64,000 nucleotides of DNA, from NCBI RefSeq assembly GCF_003555545.1, contig NZ_CP032157.1, positions 562,546 through 626,545 on the forward strand, read 5' to 3'. The DNA comes from Paraflavitalea soli (GTDB lineage Bacteria; Bacteroidota; Bacteroidia; Chitinophagales; Chitinophagaceae). A program made the position numbers and the translations under genes. Of the stretch, positions 5,990 to 64,000 are shown one piece after another. How positions within the stretch are numbered: position 1 is the stretch's first letter; each line of letters begins with the position of its first letter. The notes beneath the pieces were generated by a model. That model saw nothing but the letters and a program-made list of their open reading frames with translations. It was not told the DNA's origin and searched no databases.

Positions 5990-8587
5990 TTAGTGTACCG
6001 GCCGCATTACTTTTCTAAGGGCATTCGGTAGCTGGAAAAGATCAAAGTCATGTTCATACAGGAGGTATTTGTTTTCCCAAAAGGTAGCATACTTCTCCTT
6101 GAACTCCCGCAGGCCATCATATCGTCTGAAGCGCCTGACCCTGGGTGAGACCATTTTCAATATTTGTTCGGCCGTGTTGTCGGGCTGGGAAAGCCCGGTC
6201 AGCGGCACCATGCCGAGGTTGATGAATAACTTTCCCTTGCCCCGTGCGTATTCGATCAGTTGAAGGATCAGGGCATCAGCCGCCGCAGCCGGGGCATCGC
6301 CCGTCTTGCGGATCAGGTCGTAGGTACATTCTTCTTCGGCATAATCGGGTATAATATTAAGAAAGGCAACGATCCTGCCTTCGGCATCCGATACGGTAAT
6401 GATGTCCTGCAGCATCAATTCCTTCTCATCAAACATGCCCTGGGCAAAGATCATTTCTTCACGCGTAAAGAATTGCAGCCAATTATCCGATACTCTTCTC
6501 AATTGTTGTACAAGATCGGGGGTATGCGGTGCAGCATGTACAGCCATGGTAAATCCTTTCTTCTGCAAATTGTTGAGCCCATTACGCAATGATTTTTTAT
6601 CCCTCCCTTCGAGACTGAACTTAGCCAGCTCCAATATCCCTTCCTGACCGATCATGAGTTTCTTCTTCTTTAGTTCCCTGAAATAGGAGATGCTGTCCTC
6701 ATTGACCCGGTAGAAAGCTGTTTTCAATCCCATCTTTTTGCAATGCTGGTCAAACTCCTGCAATACCGCTGTTTTGTGTTCTTCAGCACAAACGGGTTCT
6801 TCCAATACAACGGCAAAACCACCGGCAATGCGGTAAGCAATGAATGCTTCCTGCAGGTCGGAAAAGAAATAGAGTTTATCCTTGTACACTTTGAAATAGT
6901 CCATGGCCGAGTTGCCGTATTGGCTAAGGAGGAATCTGGCGCGTTGACGGATTGATTCGCTGGTCTTTTGTCTTTTGGTATAAGGTATGATGAGTGTTAA
7001 CAATAAAAAGGCCCAGGTAAGGAAACCTGCAATGCGGATAATGGCTATAAACTCATGACCAAAGCGGGTAACGGGGTGGAGGCCACTGTCTTCTACCAGG
7101 AGAAAACTATTTAAGGTGTGCAGGAGCGACTGACGCCAGGTAAAGTCTACGCCAAAATGTCGTTGGTCTACAAAATAAAAACTGAGAAAACCAAAGAGTA
7201 ATACCGCCGACATACTGAGCAAGGCCGTTTGTAACCCTGTTCTGATCCATTTATAGCTGCTCCTGCTGCGGTATTGACCACTGGTGGTGAGCAAAATAAG
7301 CAGCGTGATGGCTGCGATGATCGCTTCTTCATAATCCAGTGCTTTGGTAACATGGCCTACCAGCGAAAGGAAGGACAAGCCTACGGCAATGAGCCAGGCG
7401 CTGCGCAGGCCCCGCAAAAGGAAGGCAGCGGTGATCAATAGTCCCAGGCCAATATAGAGCACCAATAAATTGGAGGCATGCATGGCCCGCACAGGCAGGT
7501 ATTGATGCAGGATATGGAGGCGCGACCGTACCGGGGGCAATACCACGGAGACAATATTGATCATGCCCAGGGTGAAAGTGAGCAGGGCAGGGGCCATCCG
7601 TAAGAAGAGTTTTCTACCCTTCCAGGCAAAGGCGATGATACCGGCCAGCAGGGGCAGCCAGAATTCAAAAAGCCTGTACAATACCATCACTGCCAGTGAC
7701 TGTTCCAGTGAATAGCCGAATTGCTGCAAGATGTAAACGAGTGAAATTTCAACCGCACCCAGGCCGCGTAAGAAGGGCGATACCACCATCATGAGTACCG
7801 CCGCTATATAAGCAGAGGCGGCTGCTATTAAAGAGGCGTGAATGCCGAGCGCCTGCATCGCCAGCCAGATGTGCAGGATACCACACAGCTCAACGCCCAT
7901 GGAATACAGGACGGCTCCGCCAAATTGTTTTTTGTTGACGTTGGCAGAAAACAGGTCGTCGAGGAAAGGAATTGTAGCGGGAAACTTACGACTGAAGAAA
8001 CGATACAGCATTCCTTTTTGTGCAAAAGAACGGGTAGCCCATGCCAGTGTGGCTACCAGCAATATCATGATGGCTATGCCAGCCATGGCATAACCTGATT
8101 GACTATGTTTTAAACTAAGCGCTGATAAAATGATGATAGGCAAGCCTGCCAGTACCACCGTAAGTAAACCGGCAAAGCCAAAGAGCGCGCTTGCCTGGTA
8201 TACCTGTGTTTTGGAAAAACCTGCTTTACGGATCTGGGAAGGTGCATAGGCCAATGCACTGATGCTGCCTGCGGGCAGGAACACGCTGATGAAATTCCTT
8301 TTCAGGAACAGCAGGATAGACCTGGCCCAGGAAAACCGGAGGCCAATGGATGCAAAACTTTTCCGGTAGATGCCAGATTGGAAGAGTATATAGACGATGG
8401 TCATGCCCAGGCCGGCGATTACCAGCCAGGGGTTGGCTTTGTGGATCTGCGGAAGAATAGTACTTAATTCTTTGCGCTCGCTGCGAAAGAAAACAATTGC
8501 CAGCAATAGCACCAGAATCGCCAGGAGTTCTTTTTTGGGAGCCCGTTGGAAGAAGGTGCGTAGTTTGTTTTGGAGACTGGTGGCCAT
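5990..8587 (-). CDS. mprF: MprF/LpiA-like phosphatidylglycerol lysyltransferase and flippase
   Basis: This 865-residue protein has two parts. Residues about 15-530 hold some 13-14 membrane segments (flippase-type domain, with GAVEISLVYILQQFG in the conserved region), and residues about 540-865 form a cytosolic DUF2156/GNAT-like transferase domain with LVLLEEP-like and FINLGMVPLTG motifs. MprF enzymes transfer lysine or another amino acid from charged tRNA to phosphatidylglycerol and flip the product outward, lowering surface charge and giving resistance to cationic peptides. Length matches the family. The downstream VirJ-like gene may be co-transcribed. Which amino acid is used cannot be read from sequence. 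Confidence 0.88.
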   Translation of the reverse strand: MATSLQNKLRTFFQRAPKKELLAILVLLLAIVFFRSERKELSTILPQIHKANPWLVIAGLGMTIVYILFQSGIYRKSFASIGLRFSWARSILLFLKRNFISVFLPAGSISALAYAPSQIRKAGFSKTQVYQASALFGFAGLLTVVLAGLPIIILSALSLKHSQSGYAMAGIAIMILLVATLAWATRSFAQKGMLYRFFSRKFPATIPFLDDLFSANVNKKQFGGAVLYSMGVELCGILHIWLAMQALGIHASLIAAASAYIAAVLMMVVSPFLRGLGAVEISLVYILQQFGYSLEQSLAVMVLYRLFEFWLPLLAGIIAFAWKGRKLFLRMAPALLTFTLGMINIVSVVLPPVRSRLHILHQYLPVRAMHASNLLVLYIGLGLLITAAFLLRGLRSAWLIAVGLSFLSLVGHVTKALDYEEAIIAAITLLILLTTSGQYRSRSSYKWIRTGLQTALLSMSAVLLFGFLSFYFVDQRHFGVDFTWRQSLLHTLNSFLLVEDSGLHPVTRFGHEFIAIIRIAGFLTWAFLLLTLIIPYTKRQKTSESIRQRARFLLSQYGNSAMDYFKVYKDKLYFFSDLQEAFIAYRIAGGFAVVLEEPVCAEEHKTAVLQEFDQHCKKMGLKTAFYRVNEDSISYFRELKKKKLMIGQEGILELAKFSLEGRDKKSLRNGLNNLQKKGFTMAVHAAPHTPDLVQQLRRVSDNWLQFFTREEMIFAQGMFDEKELMLQDIITVSDAEGRIVAFLNIIPDYAEEECTYDLIRKTGDAPAAAADALILQLIEYARGKGKLFINLGMVPLTGLSQPDNTAEQILKMVSPRVRRFRRYDGLREFKEKYATFWENKYLLYEHDFDLFQLPNALRKVMRPVH

Positions 8588-31868: not shown

Positions 31869-33302
31869 ATGACTATTACAAACACTTTTCATAAACATAT
31901 TGTACTGGCTGCTACCGTCCTTTCCCTGTCTGTTATTGCCTGCAATAAGCAGATAGACCTGAAGCCGACAGACACTATTGACCCGACAAAGGCTTTCAGA
32001 AATATACCCGATGTCAACAAAGGGTTGTTAGGAGCGTATGCTGGTTTAAATCAATTCAGTAGTATTTTTTATACTTCCCGTATTACCGATGAAGTAATGT
32101 TACCTTCTGAAAACAGTACAGGGGGCGGCGTGGCTACCCACCGCTGGCAATATGATGGTTCTTTTCAGCATGATGCCTGGGGCGATAATTATTTCGTAAT
32201 TGACCGTGCCAACAGGGTATTGTCAGTGATTGATAATATTGTTGCCAAACCCGGCGAAGAACAATTGAAGATCCAATACAAGGGAGAGTTATTGGCCTTG
32301 CGGGCCTATTGTCACTTTGAGCTCATCCGCAATTTTGCATCAGGGTACATAGCTGACTCCCTGGGTGTTCCATATATGGAAAAATCGGAGATCAGTATGC
32401 CGGCGCGTTTGACTTTCGCCGCTACCATGACTAAAATAAACAAAGACCTTACGGATGCGAAAGCATTAATACCTGCTTCTTTTAATGACAATACCAGGAT
32501 CACCAAAGCTGCTATTTCCGCCATACAGGCCAGGGCTGCTTTGTATGAAAAGAACTGGGACAATGCCATCACTTATGCTACCGAAGCGATCAATGCCGTG
32601 CCGTTGGCCTCCCGCACCGATTTTCCTAAAATATGGAAAGATAAAACGACCAACGAAGTATTGTGGAAGCTGAAAAGAGCGACCGGTGATAAACAAACAC
32701 CTATTGGCGATGCTTATACACAAGCAACCTTCCTGGACAATCCCGGAGGATCACGTTTGTATTATGCTGCTGCCTATAAACTGACCAATCTGTTTGACCA
32801 GGCCAATGATATCCGTTTCTCCTCCTATATTAAAATAGACCCGGCCAGGCAGACCGCCGGTAAAACACCCAATGCGGTCGTTAAATACCTGAGTGATGAG
32901 CCGGCTACCCGCAACCTGGTGGATATTAAGTTGTACCGTACCGGTGAAATGTACCTGATCAGGGCAGAAGCCTATGCAGAAAAGAATAACCTGCCCGCTG
33001 CCAAAAAAGACCTTAATGACCTGCGCGCCCAAAGGATCAGTGGCTATGTAGACCAGGACTTTGCTACTAAAGAATTGCTGATAGCTGCGGTTGATACAGA
33101 AAGATTCAAAGAACTGGCATTTGAAGGCCATCGTCATTTTGACCTAAGGCGTCATAAACTGCCCATCAGCCGTAACCCCGAAGATGCTGTGAACGCACTC
33201 GGTGCTGTATTGCTGACGCCCAATGATGCACAATACATCTGGCCCATCCCCAACAGGGAACTGCGGGTAAATAAGAACCTGAAACAAAACCCGCATTATT
33301 AA
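31869..33302 (+). CDS. SusD/RagB-family substrate-binding lipoprotein
   Basis: This 477-residue lipoprotein has a signal with lipobox (LSLSVIACNK). It holds typical SusD regions: FRNIPDVNKGLLGAYAG near the start, a TPR-like helical scaffold (YKGELLALRAYCHFELIRNF) and the C-terminal RFKELAFEGHRHFDLRRHKLPI plus YIWPIPNRELRVN. It sits 11 bp after susC and forms the lid of the SusCD complex at the outer membrane. Its ligand is unknown; genes around it suggest a peptide or amino-acid polymer. Confidence 0.94.
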   Translation: MTITNTFHKHIVLAATVLSLSVIACNKQIDLKPTDTIDPTKAFRNIPDVNKGLLGAYAGLNQFSSIFYTSRITDEVMLPSENSTGGGVATHRWQYDGSFQHDAWGDNYFVIDRANRVLSVIDNIVAKPGEEQLKIQYKGELLALRAYCHFELIRNFASGYIADSLGVPYMEKSEISMPARLTFAATMTKINKDLTDAKALIPASFNDNTRITKAAISAIQARAALYEKNWDNAITYATEAINAVPLASRTDFPKIWKDKTTNEVLWKLKRATGDKQTPIGDAYTQATFLDNPGGSRLYYAAAYKLTNLFDQANDIRFSSYIKIDPARQTAGKTPNAVVKYLSDEPATRNLVDIKLYRTGEMYLIRAEAYAEKNNLPAAKKDLNDLRAQRISGYVDQDFATKELLIAAVDTERFKELAFEGHRHFDLRRHKLPISRNPEDAVNALGAVLLTPNDAQYIWPIPNRELRVNKNLKQNPHY

Positions 33303-57948: not shown

Positions 57949-58353
57949 TCAAACGCTGGCTAACATGGCCGCTGCAAGTTTTTTATAGCATGCCTCCCAT
58001 GCCTCTTTTAATTCTTCGTTCCAGTCGTTTCCCAGGCCATGTTCAAGCGTCCATAACAAAGCTTCTCCTACCATTTTATAATATGCAGGGATGACGCCGT
58101 ATTTAATATGACGAACAGCCAAATCAGTTATTTCCGCTGAGATCACGTCCAGGTTATCGAGTCGGGTCACGATGAGGCTCAGCATCTCCATCAACTTTTC
58201 ATGTTGAGCATTCATATCTGTGCCAAACATTTTCTGCAATGACGGACTAATGACGAATAGTTTGCTGTAGAACACGTCGCCAACGATGGTTGGCTTGATT
58301 TGCTGAAATAACCGCCAGCTCCTTTGTATTAATTGTATTTGTTTTTTGGTCAT
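57949..58353 (-). CDS. Single-domain globin with flavohaemoglobin-like haem pocket
   Basis: This 134-residue protein lacks reductase domains and has the globin layout of bacterial flavohaemoglobins. B10 Tyr29 is in DVFYSKLF, the CD1 Phe is Phe43 in KMFG, E7 Gln50 is in NAQHEKL, and the proximal F8 His is His82 in VRHIKYGV. Tyr-B10/Gln-E7 is the distal pair seen in Hmp and in O2/NO-reactive single-domain globins. The start codon overlaps the stop of the LytTR regulator (TAATG), so it is co-translated with a two-component system. It may bind O2 or NO, protect the cell, or be a sensor or output. Confidence 0.88.
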   Translation of the reverse strand: MTKKQIQLIQRSWRLFQQIKPTIVGDVFYSKLFVISPSLQKMFGTDMNAQHEKLMEMLSLIVTRLDNLDVISAEITDLAVRHIKYGVIPAYYKMVGEALLWTLEHGLGNDWNEELKEAWEACYKKLAAAMLASV

Positions 58354-59123
58354 TATCTATCCATCCATTTCTTCAATAAAGGAGCTTTTTCCCGGCTTAC
58401 ATCAACTTCCAGTTTCAGCGGGGACCTTACCTGGATAGTCAGTTTTTGATTGCCAATGGGTTTGACTGATTGGATGGCATTGATGTGAATGATTGCCTGC
58501 CGGTTGGCCCGGAAAAAAAGTTGTGGATCCAACACTTCCTCGATCTCATCGAGCGCTGAAAAATCATAGATATGCTTTTCACCGCCAAAAGTGTATATGT
58601 AATTGAGGTTATCCTTTAAAAATACGGCGATGCTGCTGGTTTCAACAGGTGTCCATTTATTATTGGTATTGATAATAAAACGTTCTTTATACTGTTGTTT
58701 TGGGGAGCCGGGATTGGTGAAAAAGCTCATCAGGTGCTGCATGTCTACGGATTCAGGAAAGGCGCCAGGCCGCAGGTTACGTACTTTGTTGATGGCCTTT
58801 TTCAGGTCTTCTTCCTGGACGGGCTTTAACAGGTAATCTACTCCATTTACTTTAAATGCCCTGATAGCATATTCCTCATAAGCCGTACAAAATATAATGG
58901 GACATTTCAAGAGAAACTGATCAAATAGTTCAAAGCTTATGCCATCGCTCAGTTTTATATCCATAAAAAGTATGTCGGGTTCCTTGTTGGCCATAAACCA
59001 TTTACGGGCAGCTTTCAAGCTGGGTATAATTTCAAGCACTTCTATGTCAGGCGCAACAGCGCCAATGGTTTCCTGCATTTCGGCTGCAATCAATTGCTCG
59101 TCCTCAATAATTAATGCTTTCAT
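58353..59123 (-). CDS. LytTR-family response regulator
   Basis: This 256-residue protein has a receiver domain (IIEDEQLIAAEMQ, phospho-Asp in ILFMDIKLSDGISF, YLLKPV) and a C-terminal LytTR domain (WTPVETSSIAVFLKDNLNYIYTF, FFRANRQAIIHINAIQSV). It starts 3 nt after the kinase stop codon, and its own stop overlaps the globin start. The three genes therefore form one operon. The direct repeat upstream of the kinase gene is a plausible binding site for this regulator. Confidence 0.92.
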   Translation of the reverse strand: MKALIIEDEQLIAAEMQETIGAVAPDIEVLEIIPSLKAARKWFMANKEPDILFMDIKLSDGISFELFDQFLLKCPIIFCTAYEEYAIRAFKVNGVDYLLKPVQEEDLKKAINKVRNLRPGAFPESVDMQHLMSFFTNPGSPKQQYKERFIINTNNKWTPVETSSIAVFLKDNLNYIYTFGGEKHIYDFSALDEIEEVLDPQLFFRANRQAIIHINAIQSVKPIGNQKLTIQVRSPLKLEVDVSREKAPLLKKWMDR

Positions 59124-59126
59124 GAT

Positions 59127-62117
59127 TTATAACAAGGGGATTTTTACAATGAAATAGTGCTCGTCGGTTATTATTGCTATGGGCTTGTCGGTATAATACC
59201 TGTACAAGGTTTGTAAACCGGTCAGCCCCTTTTTATTGCTGGTTTCTACCAGGTGATACTTTTGCAGGTTATTTCTTACAACAACGTATTCCGCATCGAT
59301 ATAAATATCTATAACAAGCGGGCTATCCTTATCGGTTGTATTGTGCTTAATAGCATTCTCAACAAGGTTTTGCAAACTCACCGGTGCAATATACCTTCCA
59401 TAGTTATTCTCGGTAATTGTAATATTAGCCTGCAGGCCTTCCCCAAATCGTGTTTTCTGCAAATCAATAAATACTTTAACGAACTCCAACTCAAACTGTA
59501 AGGGCACCAGTTCCTGGTCTCCGCTTTTCAATACATACCGGTATACCTTACTCAGCCCATCCAGAAATCCGGTGGCCTGTTTTGTATCTGATCTTATCAG
59601 GCTACGCAGCGATGTTAAAGAGTTGAATAAAAAATGCGGGTTTAGTTGTTGCTTTAAACTCTCGTACTGTACCAGCGTCTTTTCCTTTTCCAGCGCTTCA
59701 GCTTTTGTTTCCAACAGAAGAATGCGCCGCTGCTTGTTCATTCTGTTACGATAAAGCACATACAGTGCAAGCGCACCTGAACAGGTTATCAGCGTCCAAA
59801 ACCAGGAAGTTGTGTAGAAGTATTTTTTAATAGTAATAGTGAGCTGCTTTTCTTCAACATGATCAAACTCATTACGCATCGCTGCTTTGAAAAGAAAGGT
59901 GTAATTGCCTCCCGGTATGTTTGTATAGACCGCTTTGGGATCGGTGGTATAATGCCATTCTTTTTCAAACCCTGATAGTTTATAGGCAAACCAGGTTTGT
60001 GACGGGTTGCTATAATTCAGCGCTTCCAGGTATAAGGTGAAGGAGTTTTGCCCGGCATTCAGGTGCAGTTGATTATTATTACCTTTATCCACCCATTTCT
60101 TTTCGCCCTGCACTTCAACAGATGCTATATAAAAAGGGATCTGATGCTCTTCCTTTTTAAATTCCGAAGGCCTGAACCTGATAAAGCCTTTAGTCGTAGG
60201 CATTATTATCCTATCATCCTTTTGATACCCGGCGTGTTCTGTAAATTCTGCACTGGTAAGCCCCGAAGCTTCGTCGAAATAATACAGGTTATGTCTTTTT
60301 TCATCCAGCATATACAGGCCGGCGGCGGTACCAATCCATAACCGGTTGGCCGTATCAACAGCCAGGGAAGAGGCGATATTGGTTTTTAATCCTTGACTTT
60401 CATTTATCCAATAGTATTGATCTTTCCCGAGGTCAATGCCCGTTACGCCGTTGAAAGTGCTTACCCAAACAATCCCTTTCTTGTCTTCCTTGATATCGAT
60501 GACCATATTGCCAATAATGGTGTTACGGCTACTGTCATTATTTTTCCAGAATTTGCATACACCGTTTTTTTCATCAGCCATGGCCAGCCCGTTTCCATAA
60601 CCAACCCAGATGCGACCTTTGCTGTCGTCGTAAACTATGCGCGCCGGGTAGCCAATGAATTGTTTGAGCAGGGGGTGTTGTCGTACGCTGTAAAATTTAT
60701 GGGCACTTTCGCTGTAATAATATAAGCCATCGTATCCGTTCGTGCCAAACCAGATACGCCCTTGGCGGTCTTTATTGGCTGTAAAATAGAAGGCCTTGGG
60801 AATAGAATCTTTCTCGTCAAAGAAGGCCATCTTATTGCTTTTCGGATCATAACAGTTAATACCTCCTCCGGTTGCAAGCCATATTCTGCCATCACTGCCG
60901 ATCTCCAATCCCCGAACGGAATTATTATAGATGACATTTTTTTTATCGGGTTCATTTCTCCAAACACTCCAGGTGTTTTTATGGGGATCATAGTATGATA
61001 TCCCATGTCCTGTGGAAAACCAATAATTTCCACTGTTGTCCTCCCGTACAATACGGCTTGTCAGGATCCTTTCCTTTTCGGGAAAGGGAAGTAAGGTGGA
61101 AAAAAGGTTTTTATCAGGGTAAAAATAGCTGCATCCTCCTACTTTACCGATCCATAACCGCTCACCGGCATCTGAAAACAGGCAAATCAGTATGTGGCCG
61201 GCATTATATGAATCCTTATCCTTATAGTTGAGATAATGATTCACCTGCCTGGTTGCCGGTGTGTATTGAAGCAGGCCCGCAACATTGGTGGTTATCCAGG
61301 TATTGTTTTTTGAATCGCAGATAAGATCGTTATAAGAAGCTGTTTTGTTCAGTGATCTTATAGCAGGATGATCTGAAATGATCTCCGATTGCCCATTTTC
61401 CGCATGATACCTGACCAGTTTAGCATTCGAAAAATTGCTTAACCATACATAGCCCGTTTTGTCGACCATAATGCGGTTAACGGTTAATTGACTCAATGCA
61501 GTAACGCTATTAAACACAGCCTGGTTCGTTGCATTGTTATATATTGTATAGCCTCCCTTACTTCCTATGTACAGCGCATCGCCGTTTAGGCATAATGAGT
61601 AATTGGGGTATTGATTAATGACTGCATTTTTCTCTTTGAGATCGGTCAGTTTTTGTTGGACTGTGTTGTATTCATACAAACTTCCATTACAGATCAGGTA
61701 TAATTGATTTTTAGGTGCTGCTATTATTTTTGCTATAAACCAGTTTTGCAGCAGGGCATGCTTGTTGAATTTATTGCTTGCAAAATCAAATTCATACAGT
61801 CCATTGTCACAGCCAAACCACAAACGTCCATCTGGCCCGCTGGTAATTGAATAAGGAATACTGGCGGGTGCCGAAGTGCTATCGCCCTGTTTATGGGCAA
61901 ATCTTTCAATGGTAGTGCCATTAAAACGATTCAATGCACCTTGGGTAGCAATCCAGATATACCCGTATTTGTCCTGGGTGATGGAAGTTACGTTGCCGTC
62001 ATTTAATCCGTTTCTGACAGTTATATCATGAAAGAAAATATTGCCAGTTTGAGCGTAAACACCCAAATTTAAAAACACGCATAATAAGGCACAAAACAGG
62101 CGGCAAAATTTCATCAT
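59127..62117 (-). CDS. Beta-propeller (Reg_prop/Y_Y_Y) sensor histidine kinase, LytS-type
   Basis: The ATG at 62117 gives 996 residues with a signal peptide (LNLGVYAQ). Residues about 25-700 hold propeller-type Reg_prop repeats (YGYIWIATQGALNRFNG, GRLWFGCDNGLYEFD, GRIWLATGGGINCYD, GRIWVGYGNGLAMAD). A Y_Y_Y domain follows at about 700-780, one membrane helix near 785-805 (TLITCSGALALYVLYRN), and a His_kinase domain with QLNPHFLFNSLTSLRSL and LQNLVENAIKHN. The sensor half resembles hybrid two-component glycan sensors, but this protein ends at the kinase without receiver or AraC part. It leads a kinase-regulator-globin operon. Confidence 0.92.
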   Translation of the reverse strand: MMKFCRLFCALLCVFLNLGVYAQTGNIFFHDITVRNGLNDGNVTSITQDKYGYIWIATQGALNRFNGTTIERFAHKQGDSTSAPASIPYSITSGPDGRLWFGCDNGLYEFDFASNKFNKHALLQNWFIAKIIAAPKNQLYLICNGSLYEYNTVQQKLTDLKEKNAVINQYPNYSLCLNGDALYIGSKGGYTIYNNATNQAVFNSVTALSQLTVNRIMVDKTGYVWLSNFSNAKLVRYHAENGQSEIISDHPAIRSLNKTASYNDLICDSKNNTWITTNVAGLLQYTPATRQVNHYLNYKDKDSYNAGHILICLFSDAGERLWIGKVGGCSYFYPDKNLFSTLLPFPEKERILTSRIVREDNSGNYWFSTGHGISYYDPHKNTWSVWRNEPDKKNVIYNNSVRGLEIGSDGRIWLATGGGINCYDPKSNKMAFFDEKDSIPKAFYFTANKDRQGRIWFGTNGYDGLYYYSESAHKFYSVRQHPLLKQFIGYPARIVYDDSKGRIWVGYGNGLAMADEKNGVCKFWKNNDSSRNTIIGNMVIDIKEDKKGIVWVSTFNGVTGIDLGKDQYYWINESQGLKTNIASSLAVDTANRLWIGTAAGLYMLDEKRHNLYYFDEASGLTSAEFTEHAGYQKDDRIIMPTTKGFIRFRPSEFKKEEHQIPFYIASVEVQGEKKWVDKGNNNQLHLNAGQNSFTLYLEALNYSNPSQTWFAYKLSGFEKEWHYTTDPKAVYTNIPGGNYTFLFKAAMRNEFDHVEEKQLTITIKKYFYTTSWFWTLITCSGALALYVLYRNRMNKQRRILLLETKAEALEKEKTLVQYESLKQQLNPHFLFNSLTSLRSLIRSDTKQATGFLDGLSKVYRYVLKSGDQELVPLQFELEFVKVFIDLQKTRFGEGLQANITITENNYGRYIAPVSLQNLVENAIKHNTTDKDSPLVIDIYIDAEYVVVRNNLQKYHLVETSNKKGLTGLQTLYRYYTDKPIAIITDEHYFIVKIPLL

Positions 62118-62192: not shown

Positions 62193-62231
62193 GGTAAAAA
62201 GGGCCTTAAACCGGATAAAAATGGCCTTAAA
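62193..62231 (-). promoter_or_regulatory. 21-bp-spaced direct repeat, candidate LytTR regulator site
   Basis: Two 18-bp copies, GGTAAAAAGGGCCTTAAA (62193-62210) and GATAAAAATGGCCTTAAA (62214-62231), differ at two positions and lie exactly 21 bp apart, two helical turns. LytTR proteins are known to bind direct repeats spaced by about two turns. The site is 76-114 bp upstream of the kinase start codon, an appropriate position for autoregulation. The match to the general LytTR consensus is not checked. Confidence 0.5.
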
Positions 62232-62435
62232 GTGCGGTCATCGTTCATGATCATATAATCCACCGAAACGGATGCCTGACAGGTTAAGGTGAAAAGCCGG
62301 CATTGCTCCGTTCTTCAGAAAATCACTTCGTCGCGCTGTTTATACGTTTGGAGGCATTGAATAGCATAATGACTTAACTCTGTTTGCAGGCATTTTCAGG
62401 GAGAGCAATCTTTGTGGTATCAAAATAAAAATGAA

Positions 62436-63365
62436 ATGAAAAAATTACACCTTCTATTGGTCGTGTTGTTTATAACAACCATAGCAGCAGCCCAAACGCC
62501 TCAATTAATAAACTACCAGGCAGTGGCGCGTAATAATAGTGGTCAGGCACTGGCTAATCAAACCATTAAAATACGTATCAGCTTGAATGCCTCAGATGCC
62601 AGCAGCGCCACCACTTTTTACAGCGAAACCAGAACGGTTACCACAAATGCCCTCGGCTTGTTTAATGTTCAGATAGGCTCATCCGGAGCCAGCGCTACTT
62701 ATGGCAGTATCAGTAATACAGAATGGACAGATGGCAGCAAAACACGCTTTATAAAAGTTGAGTTGGATGTAAACAACAGTGGTGTTTTTACGGATATGGG
62801 CAGCCAGCAACTGGTATCGGTGCCTTTTGCATTAGCTGCTAATACTGCAGTTAACAGTGCTAAAATTGGTGGCCGTACGGTTGATTCAGTTACAGCGCCA
62901 ACGAATGGGCAGGTGTTAACCTGGAATTCCAATAGCAGCATCTGGCAGCCTTCAACTATTGTAACCAATGCTCCTGTAATAAAACAATTTGCCGGCCAGG
63001 TACCTAATCCCATTCCTACCAGCCCCAATTGGGTGTTTGTAGGTGCAACCCAAAGTATTACTATTGTGGGTGGTAACAAATTTATTACCGGTAACTTTAG
63101 TGCATCATTAGGTACTAATTTGGGAACTGGGGCTACAGTGTCTCTCTGTGCGTGCTGGCAAAATTCAAGTGGCGGATCCATTACTCCATTTAATCCTACC
63201 AATTACCCGGAGGCCATTGTGGAATCAAACAGGAGGATCGTTAGTTATAATGGAGCTATATCACTTTCCAGCGGCACTTATAACCTAGGTCTCTGCATCC
63301 GCAATAACTCTGGCGTTGCACTCAATTTTAATGATTATTTCTCGGGTTACATGCAGTTACATTAA
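62436..63365 (+). CDS. Secreted protein with repeat-like beta-rich N-terminal region
   Basis: Translation from the ATG at 62436 gives 309 residues with signal MKKLHLLLVVLFITTIAAAQ. The first 140 mature residues (INYQAVARNNSGQALANQTIKIRISL, VTTNALGLFNVQIGSS, GVFTDMGSQQLVSVPFALAAN) match a common Bacteroidota secreted module often found in tail-fibre- or adhesin-like proteins. The C-terminal part is beta-rich without a T9SS sorting domain visible. It is followed by another secreted-protein gene; the pair may form a cell-surface structure. Function unknown. Confidence 0.7.
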   Translation: MKKLHLLLVVLFITTIAAAQTPQLINYQAVARNNSGQALANQTIKIRISLNASDASSATTFYSETRTVTTNALGLFNVQIGSSGASATYGSISNTEWTDGSKTRFIKVELDVNNSGVFTDMGSQQLVSVPFALAANTAVNSAKIGGRTVDSVTAPTNGQVLTWNSNSSIWQPSTIVTNAPVIKQFAGQVPNPIPTSPNWVFVGATQSITIVGGNKFITGNFSASLGTNLGTGATVSLCACWQNSSGGSITPFNPTNYPEAIVESNRRIVSYNGAISLSSGTYNLGLCIRNNSGVALNFNDYFSGYMQLH

Positions 63366-63422: not shown

Positions 63423-64000
63423 ATGATGATGGCAGTAATAAAATGTAAAATGGCGGTGCTGTTGTTGCTGGTTTGTACTGTCACTTCAGCGCAACAATTG
63501 AGTATACAAACCATTAATGCTGCCGGACAAAGCCATAGTGCGGGGGGCTGTTACTGGAAGATGCAGTAGGAGGCCCGGTAGTGGCGGCAGTAAACAGCAC
63601 TGATATTATGTATACGCCTGATTTTTTACAACCCAACGCTGGCACCACCACCAGCATACCTACAGTGGGAAATGCCCAAACAACCAGCGGGTCGGCAGGA
63701 ATTGATAACGGCGGTGGTACACTATTGAAAAATGCCCTGATGCTTGAATTTACTGTTGGTGAAGTTGCCAGTACCAGCTTGCAGCAAACCGGCGGATTGC
63801 TTACACAGGGTATTTTACAGCCTTATACGTTAACCATTTTGCCGGTGACGGGCCTCGACCTTTTTGCCAGCCGCGTAAACAGCAACGAGGTTCGGCTTAC
63901 CTGGAAAACGGTCCAGGAGATCAACAACAAAGGATTCTTTGTTGAACGGAGAAAAGAAATCGATACTAGTTTTGCTGTGGTTGCTTTCGAAAGCACGAAA
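63423..64000 (+). pseudogene. Frameshifted secreted protein gene, runs off the window
   Basis: The ATG at 63423 gives a signal peptide (VLLLLVCTVTSAQ) and SIQTINAAGQSHSAGG, then a stop at 63567-63569. In the +1-shifted frame, the sequence LLLEDAVGGPVVAAV continues without a stop to the window end, including LDLFASRVNSNEVRLTWKTVQEINNKGFFVERR, a fibronectin-like module that usually precedes a T9SS sorting domain. The shift lies at a run of six G (63542-63547); seven G would restore SAGGLLLED. It may be a real disruption, a phase-variable tract or a sequencing error. With one extra G the protein would be intact. Confidence 0.75.

Follow-up and report, generated by a model that had tools for sequence, protein, structure and literature searches.

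The three genes described here occupy positions 62117 to 57949 of a 64,000-nucleotide (nt) stretch of Paraflavitalea soli DNA (the window), which corresponds to positions 562546 to 626545 of a single 8.44-Mb contig. They lie in one row on the minus strand and encode a propeller-type sensor kinase, a LytTR response regulator and a single-domain globin. A preliminary description, made from the letters of the window, had reported this row, and its coordinates were confirmed on re-reading, as were the gap of 3 nt between kinase and regulator and the single base common to the regulator stop and the globin start (TAATG).

62117-59127, minus strand: sensor histidine kinase of propeller type (Reg_prop, Y_Y_Y, His_kinase), 996 amino acids (aa), identified with Pfam
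59123-58353, minus strand: LytTR response regulator of clade I (our label), 256 aa, identified with Pfam and a regulator tree
58353-57949, minus strand: single-domain F-type globin, 134 aa, identified with Pfam, pocket residues and a structure-database match

Pfam assigned Reg_prop (5.5e-31), Y_Y_Y (1.8e-11) and His_kinase (PF06580, 4.6e-23) domains to the kinase, and Response_reg (6.9e-14) and LytTR (8e-12) domains to the regulator; a PF06580 kinase adjoining a receiver-LytTR regulator is the arrangement of a LytS/LytTR system. The globin matched PF00042 (2.4e-18, residues 28-130) and no other Pfam family, in agreement with the earlier statement that this gene lacks a reductase. With its globin profile, Tyr29 at B10, Gln50 at E7 and His82 at F8 it is, by sequence, an F-type single-domain globin, and Lys53 lies at E10 by position. 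The FAD/NAD(P)H reductase domain that follows the globin in flavohaemoglobins is missing, and the protein is encoded by a stand-alone gene instead of being fused to a signalling domain as in globin-coupled sensors. We rejected an assignment as flavohaemoglobin or NO-detoxification gene because the Globin domain stands alone and the score against the flavohaemoglobin model NF009805 (58.6 bits) is far below the cut-off of 432. No linked reductase gene was found among the mapped neighbours, on part of which Pfam was run; if the globin is catalytic, a reductase must be supplied from elsewhere. Its closest named relatives are globins of Paraflavitalea sp. CAU 1676 (79% identity) and Niastella caeni (75%).

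The preliminary description had singled out Tyr29, Gln50 and His82, and among 86 aligned single-domain globins these positions are indeed largely kept (in 85, 82 and 78 sequences, respectively), as is the lysine (76). Its naming of the pocket after flavohaemoglobins did not hold, because the closest solved structures are Methylacidiphilum globins (3wfw, 3.9e-26; 3s1i, 2.2e-22), with flavohaemoglobin structures ranking lower (for example 1cqx, 6.3e-8). The pocket is therefore better named after Hell's Gate globin I (HGb-I), which together with HGbRL, also of Methylacidiphilum infernorum, provides these closest structures. According to the available sections of PMC11203436, Tyr29 and Gln50 of HGb-I, likewise at B10 and E7, form bonds with the distal ligand, and in HGbRL the pocket is closed by a lysine at E10. 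HGbRL differs from the window globin in being fused to Roadblock/LC7. Since Tyr29 and Gln50 match HGb-I and Lys53 sits at the E10 spacing, chemistry with O2 or NO appears likely for the window globin. The gas-sensing or nitrosative-stress branch proposed earlier had the pocket residues as its sole basis, and would on these grounds have to be called not supported, or open. We know of no two-component partner for Hell's Gate globin I or HGbRL, and no separate search for one was made.

We searched 394 genomes of the same family, all related species, with an alignment of 13 globins at a cut-off of 1e-8. The first 10 (globin) or first 6 (regulator) candidates per genome were scored in the genome searches, and the counts are therefore lower bounds. 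Globin matches were found in at least 62 genomes, 10 of which had only long, flavohaemoglobin-like frames (at least 399 aa) and at least 52 of which had single-domain globins. Together, 60 loci fetched around single-domain matches, the window and the second globin locus of its genome (L012) gave a set of 62 loci, cited here by our L numbers. A kinase and a receiver-LytTR regulator at most 300 nt apart, both within 3.5 kb of the globin, were present at 39 of the 62; at 26, pair and globin were adjacent on one strand, at most 600 nt apart and with no same-strand gene between them. Among the 23 loci that miss this rule, L059 (which has only a cut kinase), L060, L101, L105 and L112 are located at a contig end or close to one, and a damaged pair is found nearby at L074 (kinase cut and on the opposite strand) and L111 (genes in pieces). 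In contrast, none of 12 flavohaemoglobin loci had such a pair, the 12 stretches containing no LytTR gene at all, and in 22 control stretches (these 12 and 10 random ones) the 3.5-kb rule was met by 2 of 126 other genes. This supports the view that the three genes are a conserved functional unit. The preliminary description had proposed an examination of the three-gene order across Chitinophagaceae; the pairing recurs, but the order is not fixed: kinase-regulator-globin occurs in the window and at L053, L054, L063, L071 and L084, globin-kinase-regulator for example at L058, L072, L086, L102, L103 and L108, and tandem globins beside the pair at L061, L064, L065, L070 and L076. These relatives also disprove the idea that the trio is unique to this strain. 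That the pairing is kept in shuffled gene orders suggests that the globin is a product controlled by the system.

When 395 genomes of the phylum and 248 of the order were sampled at a cut-off of 1e-22, single-domain loci with a pair within 100 nt came to light in family f2 of the order (L124, L125, L127) and in family f10 of the class (L115, on the opposite strand, and L119). The fetched stretches of L113, L114, L116, L117, L118, L120, L121 and L122, from seven genomes of other families, contained no LytTR gene, and neither did that of L126, which stops at a contig end. Based on the f2 and f10 loci with a pair and the eight loci of other families without a LytTR gene, the association is, as far as sampled, a feature of a class-level lineage. 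Some globin neighbourhoods showed further peculiarities: a protein of about 105 aa is encoded directly before the globins at L065 (7489-7827) and seven other loci, the L089 globin (7936-8355) precedes a solitary LytTR protein of 148 aa that has no receiver domain, and a shortened flavohaemoglobin-like protein of 283 aa (L115:9334-10185) is encoded near a single-domain globin.

In a tree of 61 regulators, the window regulator fell into a globin-linked group of 42 rows (98/96 support), our clade I, which holds most globin-linked regulators; a second globin-linked group of 6 rows (98/91 support) includes L012, where two tandem globins (6533-7400) follow a further propeller kinase-LytTR pair of the same genome at a distance of 2.9 kb. 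The long outgroup branches of this tree urge caution, and its sampling was drawn around globins. A clade-I model gave at least 77 rows with scores of 324 bits and above, from at least 58 of the 394 genomes, the next match scoring 278 bits. The notion that all clade-I regulators are globin-linked had to be abandoned as an effect of sampling around globins, since the search for the regulator itself found unlinked ones. Among 80 distinct clade-I regulators, 42 had a globin within 4 kb, 32 had none and 6 were undecidable at contig ends. The absence of the globin beside orthologous pairs, which the preliminary description had considered fatal to its proposal, thus gave a mixed outcome, and the globin cannot be called obligatory, as 32 of the 74 decidable regulators are without it. 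The globin-linked state changed at least 15 times on the regulator tree, compared to a mean of 24.1 for shuffled labels (none of 500 shuffles was as low), and well-supported branches force at least five changes. Because linked and unlinked regulators are both numerous and the state changed repeatedly, the partnership is recurrent and old, yet optional. At the genome level, 44 genomes had both a single-domain globin and a clade-I regulator, 8 only the globin, 14 only the regulator and 328 neither (Fisher p = 1e-37, which is not a true probability since the genomes are related).

These numbers also bear on the simplest alternative, namely that the neighbourhood reflects descent or chance and the globin is a passenger beside very common LytTR pairs. 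The genome indeed holds 65 LytTR domains in 8.44 Mb, about one per 130 kb, a LytTR gene was present in 2 of the 10 random 16-kb stretches, and the globin-linked label is clustered on the regulator tree. By our arithmetic, however, only about 6 of 100 globins would be expected to have a LytTR gene within 3.5 kb on either side, against the 39 of 62 observed, and several gene orders, the recurrence with a second regulator group and the changes forced by well-supported branches all speak against a passenger. We therefore consider this explanation very improbable.

The upstream regions of the clade-I operons provide the evidence on control. The motif TTCA-N17-TTCA was present in 24 of 70 dissimilar upstream regions, where 2.4 would be expected from other genes at the same loci. 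The aligned site reads approximately ACGgTTCA, 13 nt, ACGcTTCA, with a 21-nt period, and it mostly lies 80-110 nt before the first gene, which is the kinase or, where the globin gene is first, the globin. When each operon was scored by a model trained without that operon and without similar regions (leave-one-out), 56 of 77 clade-I operons reached at least 8 bits, compared to 53 of 1027 control genes and none of the 12 flavohaemoglobin genes, all of which scored below zero; the control set (1027-1030 genes) includes likely true targets, and some stretches were fetched twice (L065/L189, L067/L191). Misses of the first scan at L053, L063, L124, L125 and L098 were due to over-long kinase frames, the site being nearer to the true start. 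Genes head-to-head with clade-I kinases scored at least 10 in 13 of 24 rows, two of which represent one gene. In the window, the intergenic region and the divergent genes are organized as follows:

62202-62231, minus strand: predicted regulator site of the kinase-regulator-globin operon, a perfect 9-nt direct repeat with a 12-nt spacer and a 21-nt period
62322-62354, plus strand: second predicted site, oriented towards the divergent exported-protein gene, with the third-highest score of the window (13.4)
62436-63365, plus strand: divergent gene with likely ATG at 62436 and a signal-peptide-like start (our reading), likely target
63581-64000, plus strand: next gene of the divergent group, passing the window end, with a sorting-like C-terminal end (our reading)

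The repeat GGCCTTAAA is found at 62202-62210 and 62223-62231 of the plus strand, that is GGCCTTAAA-N12-GGCCTTAAA. This agrees exactly with the architecture of LytTR sites, two repeats of 9-11 nt with a spacer of 11-13 nt, as given in the available part of PMC4847170, and marks 62202-62231 as a predicted site. The best model position of the whole window is 62204-62236 on the minus strand, facing the kinase, with a score of 19.4 (19.2 when left out of training). The second site lies about 110 nt before the likely ATG of the divergent gene, and its presence there bears out the earlier suggestion of a tie to an envelope theme, here exported proteins. A pattern written from these two sites had no other exact match in the 8.44 Mb; with two mismatches it had five, equal to background (four with the reversed pattern). 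The second-best model match in the window, with a score of 14.0, lies at 33142-33174 on the minus strand. Pfam found no family in the divergent protein, and the counterpart of the next gene in L202 has 266 aa. The genes that recur beside clade-I systems encode, by our reading of the sequences, proteins that look exported (two clusters, with 25 and 22 loci) and lipoprotein-like proteins of roughly 255 aa (14 loci, for example L067, L062 and L087); the site precedes some of the latter genes (L081, L087).

A globin that is a controlled product should be preceded by the site even when it is encoded at a distance from the system, provided that the genome has a clade-I regulator. With a model trained on system operons only, we scored the stretch 150-50 nt upstream of 29 of the 38 collected globins for which the nearest 4 kb held no clade-I pair. 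Where the genome has a clade-I regulator, 11 of 14 distant globins scored at least 6 (9 of 14 at least 10), compared to none of 6 in genomes of the same family in which no such regulator was detected, none of 9 in other families, where clade I was not searched for, and 36 of 1030 control genes. Left out were L056 (3970), L092 and L094, which are beside other kinase-LytTR pairs, L074, L111 and L115, which are beside a pair missed by the 4-kb rule, L112, which is a fragment, L105, which is at the end of a contig, and L113 (2973), a contig's second globin. Over a wider stretch they scored -9.7 (L056), -4.7 (L092), -8.9 (L094), -1.6 (L074), 12.2 (L111), 1.1 (L115), -8.1 (L112) and -3.7 (L113), L105 being too short to score. 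The result for the distant globins favours the view that the regulator controls the globin, and is compatible with feedback; by the promoter evidence the globin looks more like a controlled product than like the sensor.

Based on the present data, we regard it as probable that the locus encodes an autoregulated two-component system for an envelope or periplasmic signal, with a small regulon of exported proteins and a globin that is mainly an output. Several observations weigh against this proposal. At the 8-bit level, 21 of the 77 clade-I operons lack the site, including the globin-first loci L098, L099, L107, L109 and L110 and also L119; at L098 the site precedes the kinase instead of the globin. 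The distant globins of L089, L090 and L097 have no site in the 150-50 nt stretch, those of L089 and L090 having one further out (at -257 and -273), while the positives L059, L060 and L101, which border contig ends, could in fact be close to a system, and L069/L073 and L082/L088 are congener pairs. Finally, the tandem globins of the own genome (L012) lack the clade-I site; they are near a different kinase-LytTR pair, and another site is expected there.

A different role would be that of a cytoplasmic gas-sensing subunit that acts in trans on the propeller kinase, as the haem proteins H-NOX and NosP act on the kinases beside them, and makes its response to the envelope signal depend on O2 or NO. 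The tight coupling in the window (TAATG) and the largely kept Tyr, Gln, Lys and His positions are compatible with this, and according to the accessible portion of PMC8738867, H-NOX genes usually adjoin kinases or cyclic-di-GMP enzymes, an adjacency to be expected of a trans-acting haem sensor of the H-NOX/NosP kind and also seen here. Locus L119 (6626-11817) would be its barest form: in a row of propeller kinase, globin, short kinase and LytTR regulator, 3 nt separate the globin from the short kinase that follows it. This kinase, of 212 aa and with His_kinase as its only Pfam domain, is itself 14 nt before the regulator and would need a sensor in trans. Moreover, this type of globin can be an input domain, as related globins are fused to 2Fe-2S and nucleotide cyclase domains, with the F-type globin at the C-terminus, in single proteins at L123 (7862-9190), L128 (7718-9052), L129 (6680-8071) and L130 (7887-9206); Pfam was run on L128 only, and no paper in the literature searched treats such a fusion by its title. 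Against this stand the many clade-I regulators without a nearby globin, the 14 of 58 clade-I genomes in which no single-domain globin was detected, and the distant globins, which keep the regulator's predicted site as a target needs. The single locus L119 and the small number of fusions count for less than the promoter evidence, yet because of them a sensor acting in trans deserves consideration, although it is unlikely. In a combined role, the globin would be a product of the system and at the same time act back on the kinase, damping or sharpening it as O2 or NO changes. This would suit co-expression in one operon, and the facts behind the output and sensor roles apply equally to it. Nothing observed here demands feedback, however, and systems without a globin persist, so that we give this role little credence.

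For the favoured role as an output, the following sequence of events can be envisaged. The periplasmic propellers of the kinase would receive the envelope signal, and the kinase would phosphorylate the LytTR regulator. The regulator would then bind to the direct repeat in front of its own operon and raise the levels of kinase, regulator and globin, while the second site in the same intergenic region would drive the divergent exported-protein gene. Activation from the predicted site is plausible, because AgrA sites centre near -60 of activated promoters according to the available text of PMC4227749. In relatives, the same site would act before first-placed globins and before globins encoded elsewhere. 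The cytoplasmic globin would handle O2 or NO by binding or scavenging the gas or, with a reductase encoded elsewhere, by redox chemistry, and it would serve cells that switch on surface export.

Among known systems, YpdA/YpdB of Escherichia coli, which is of the LytS/LytTR type, is similar in its PF06580 kinase, its receiver-LytTR regulator, its direct repeat with a 21-22-nt period and its very small regulon, YpdB having one direct target (PMC4847170, available part). The window system differs in its periplasmic propeller sensor, the globin in its operon and exported-protein genes as likely targets. H-NOX and NosP resemble the globin as stand-alone haem proteins encoded beside a histidine kinase (PMC8738867, accessible portion), but they differ in haem fold; the window globin has a LytTR regulator and a propeller kinase beside it, and for this globin the promoter evidence favours an output. 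Flavohaemoglobins (Hmp) share similarity in the globin domain (the 58.6 bits against NF009805), but they have the reductase domain that the window globin lacks, and their loci have neither LytTR neighbours nor the site. The single-domain haemoglobin of Campylobacter is reportedly a member of the regulon of NssR, said to be a Crp-Fnr regulator of nitrosative stress; it is thus likewise a single-domain globin inside a regulon, but not under a two-component LytTR regulator.

The preliminary description knew of no described system with this arrangement, and in the literature searched, with most subscription papers outside its scope, we also found none. The papers there that mention both a globin and LytTR are, by their titles, on other subjects, and nothing on this arrangement was met among papers on single-domain globins with a kinase and an operon or with a gene neighbourhood. 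The parts are of known kinds; the combination and the predicted regulon appear new. In a 2006 census, globins were for the most part missing from the small number of Bacteroidetes known at the time (PMC1457004, available part). If the globin were a gas sensor after all, intracellular O2 or NO would be integrated with an envelope signal, in a globin counterpart of H-NOX/NosP signalling. For most bacterial single-domain globins the function is, to our knowledge, not known, and the conserved regulator, the predicted site and the small set of targets make one of them directly testable. This raises the questions of which signal switches the globin on and why, in Bacteroidota, a haem protein would be made together with exported surface proteins.

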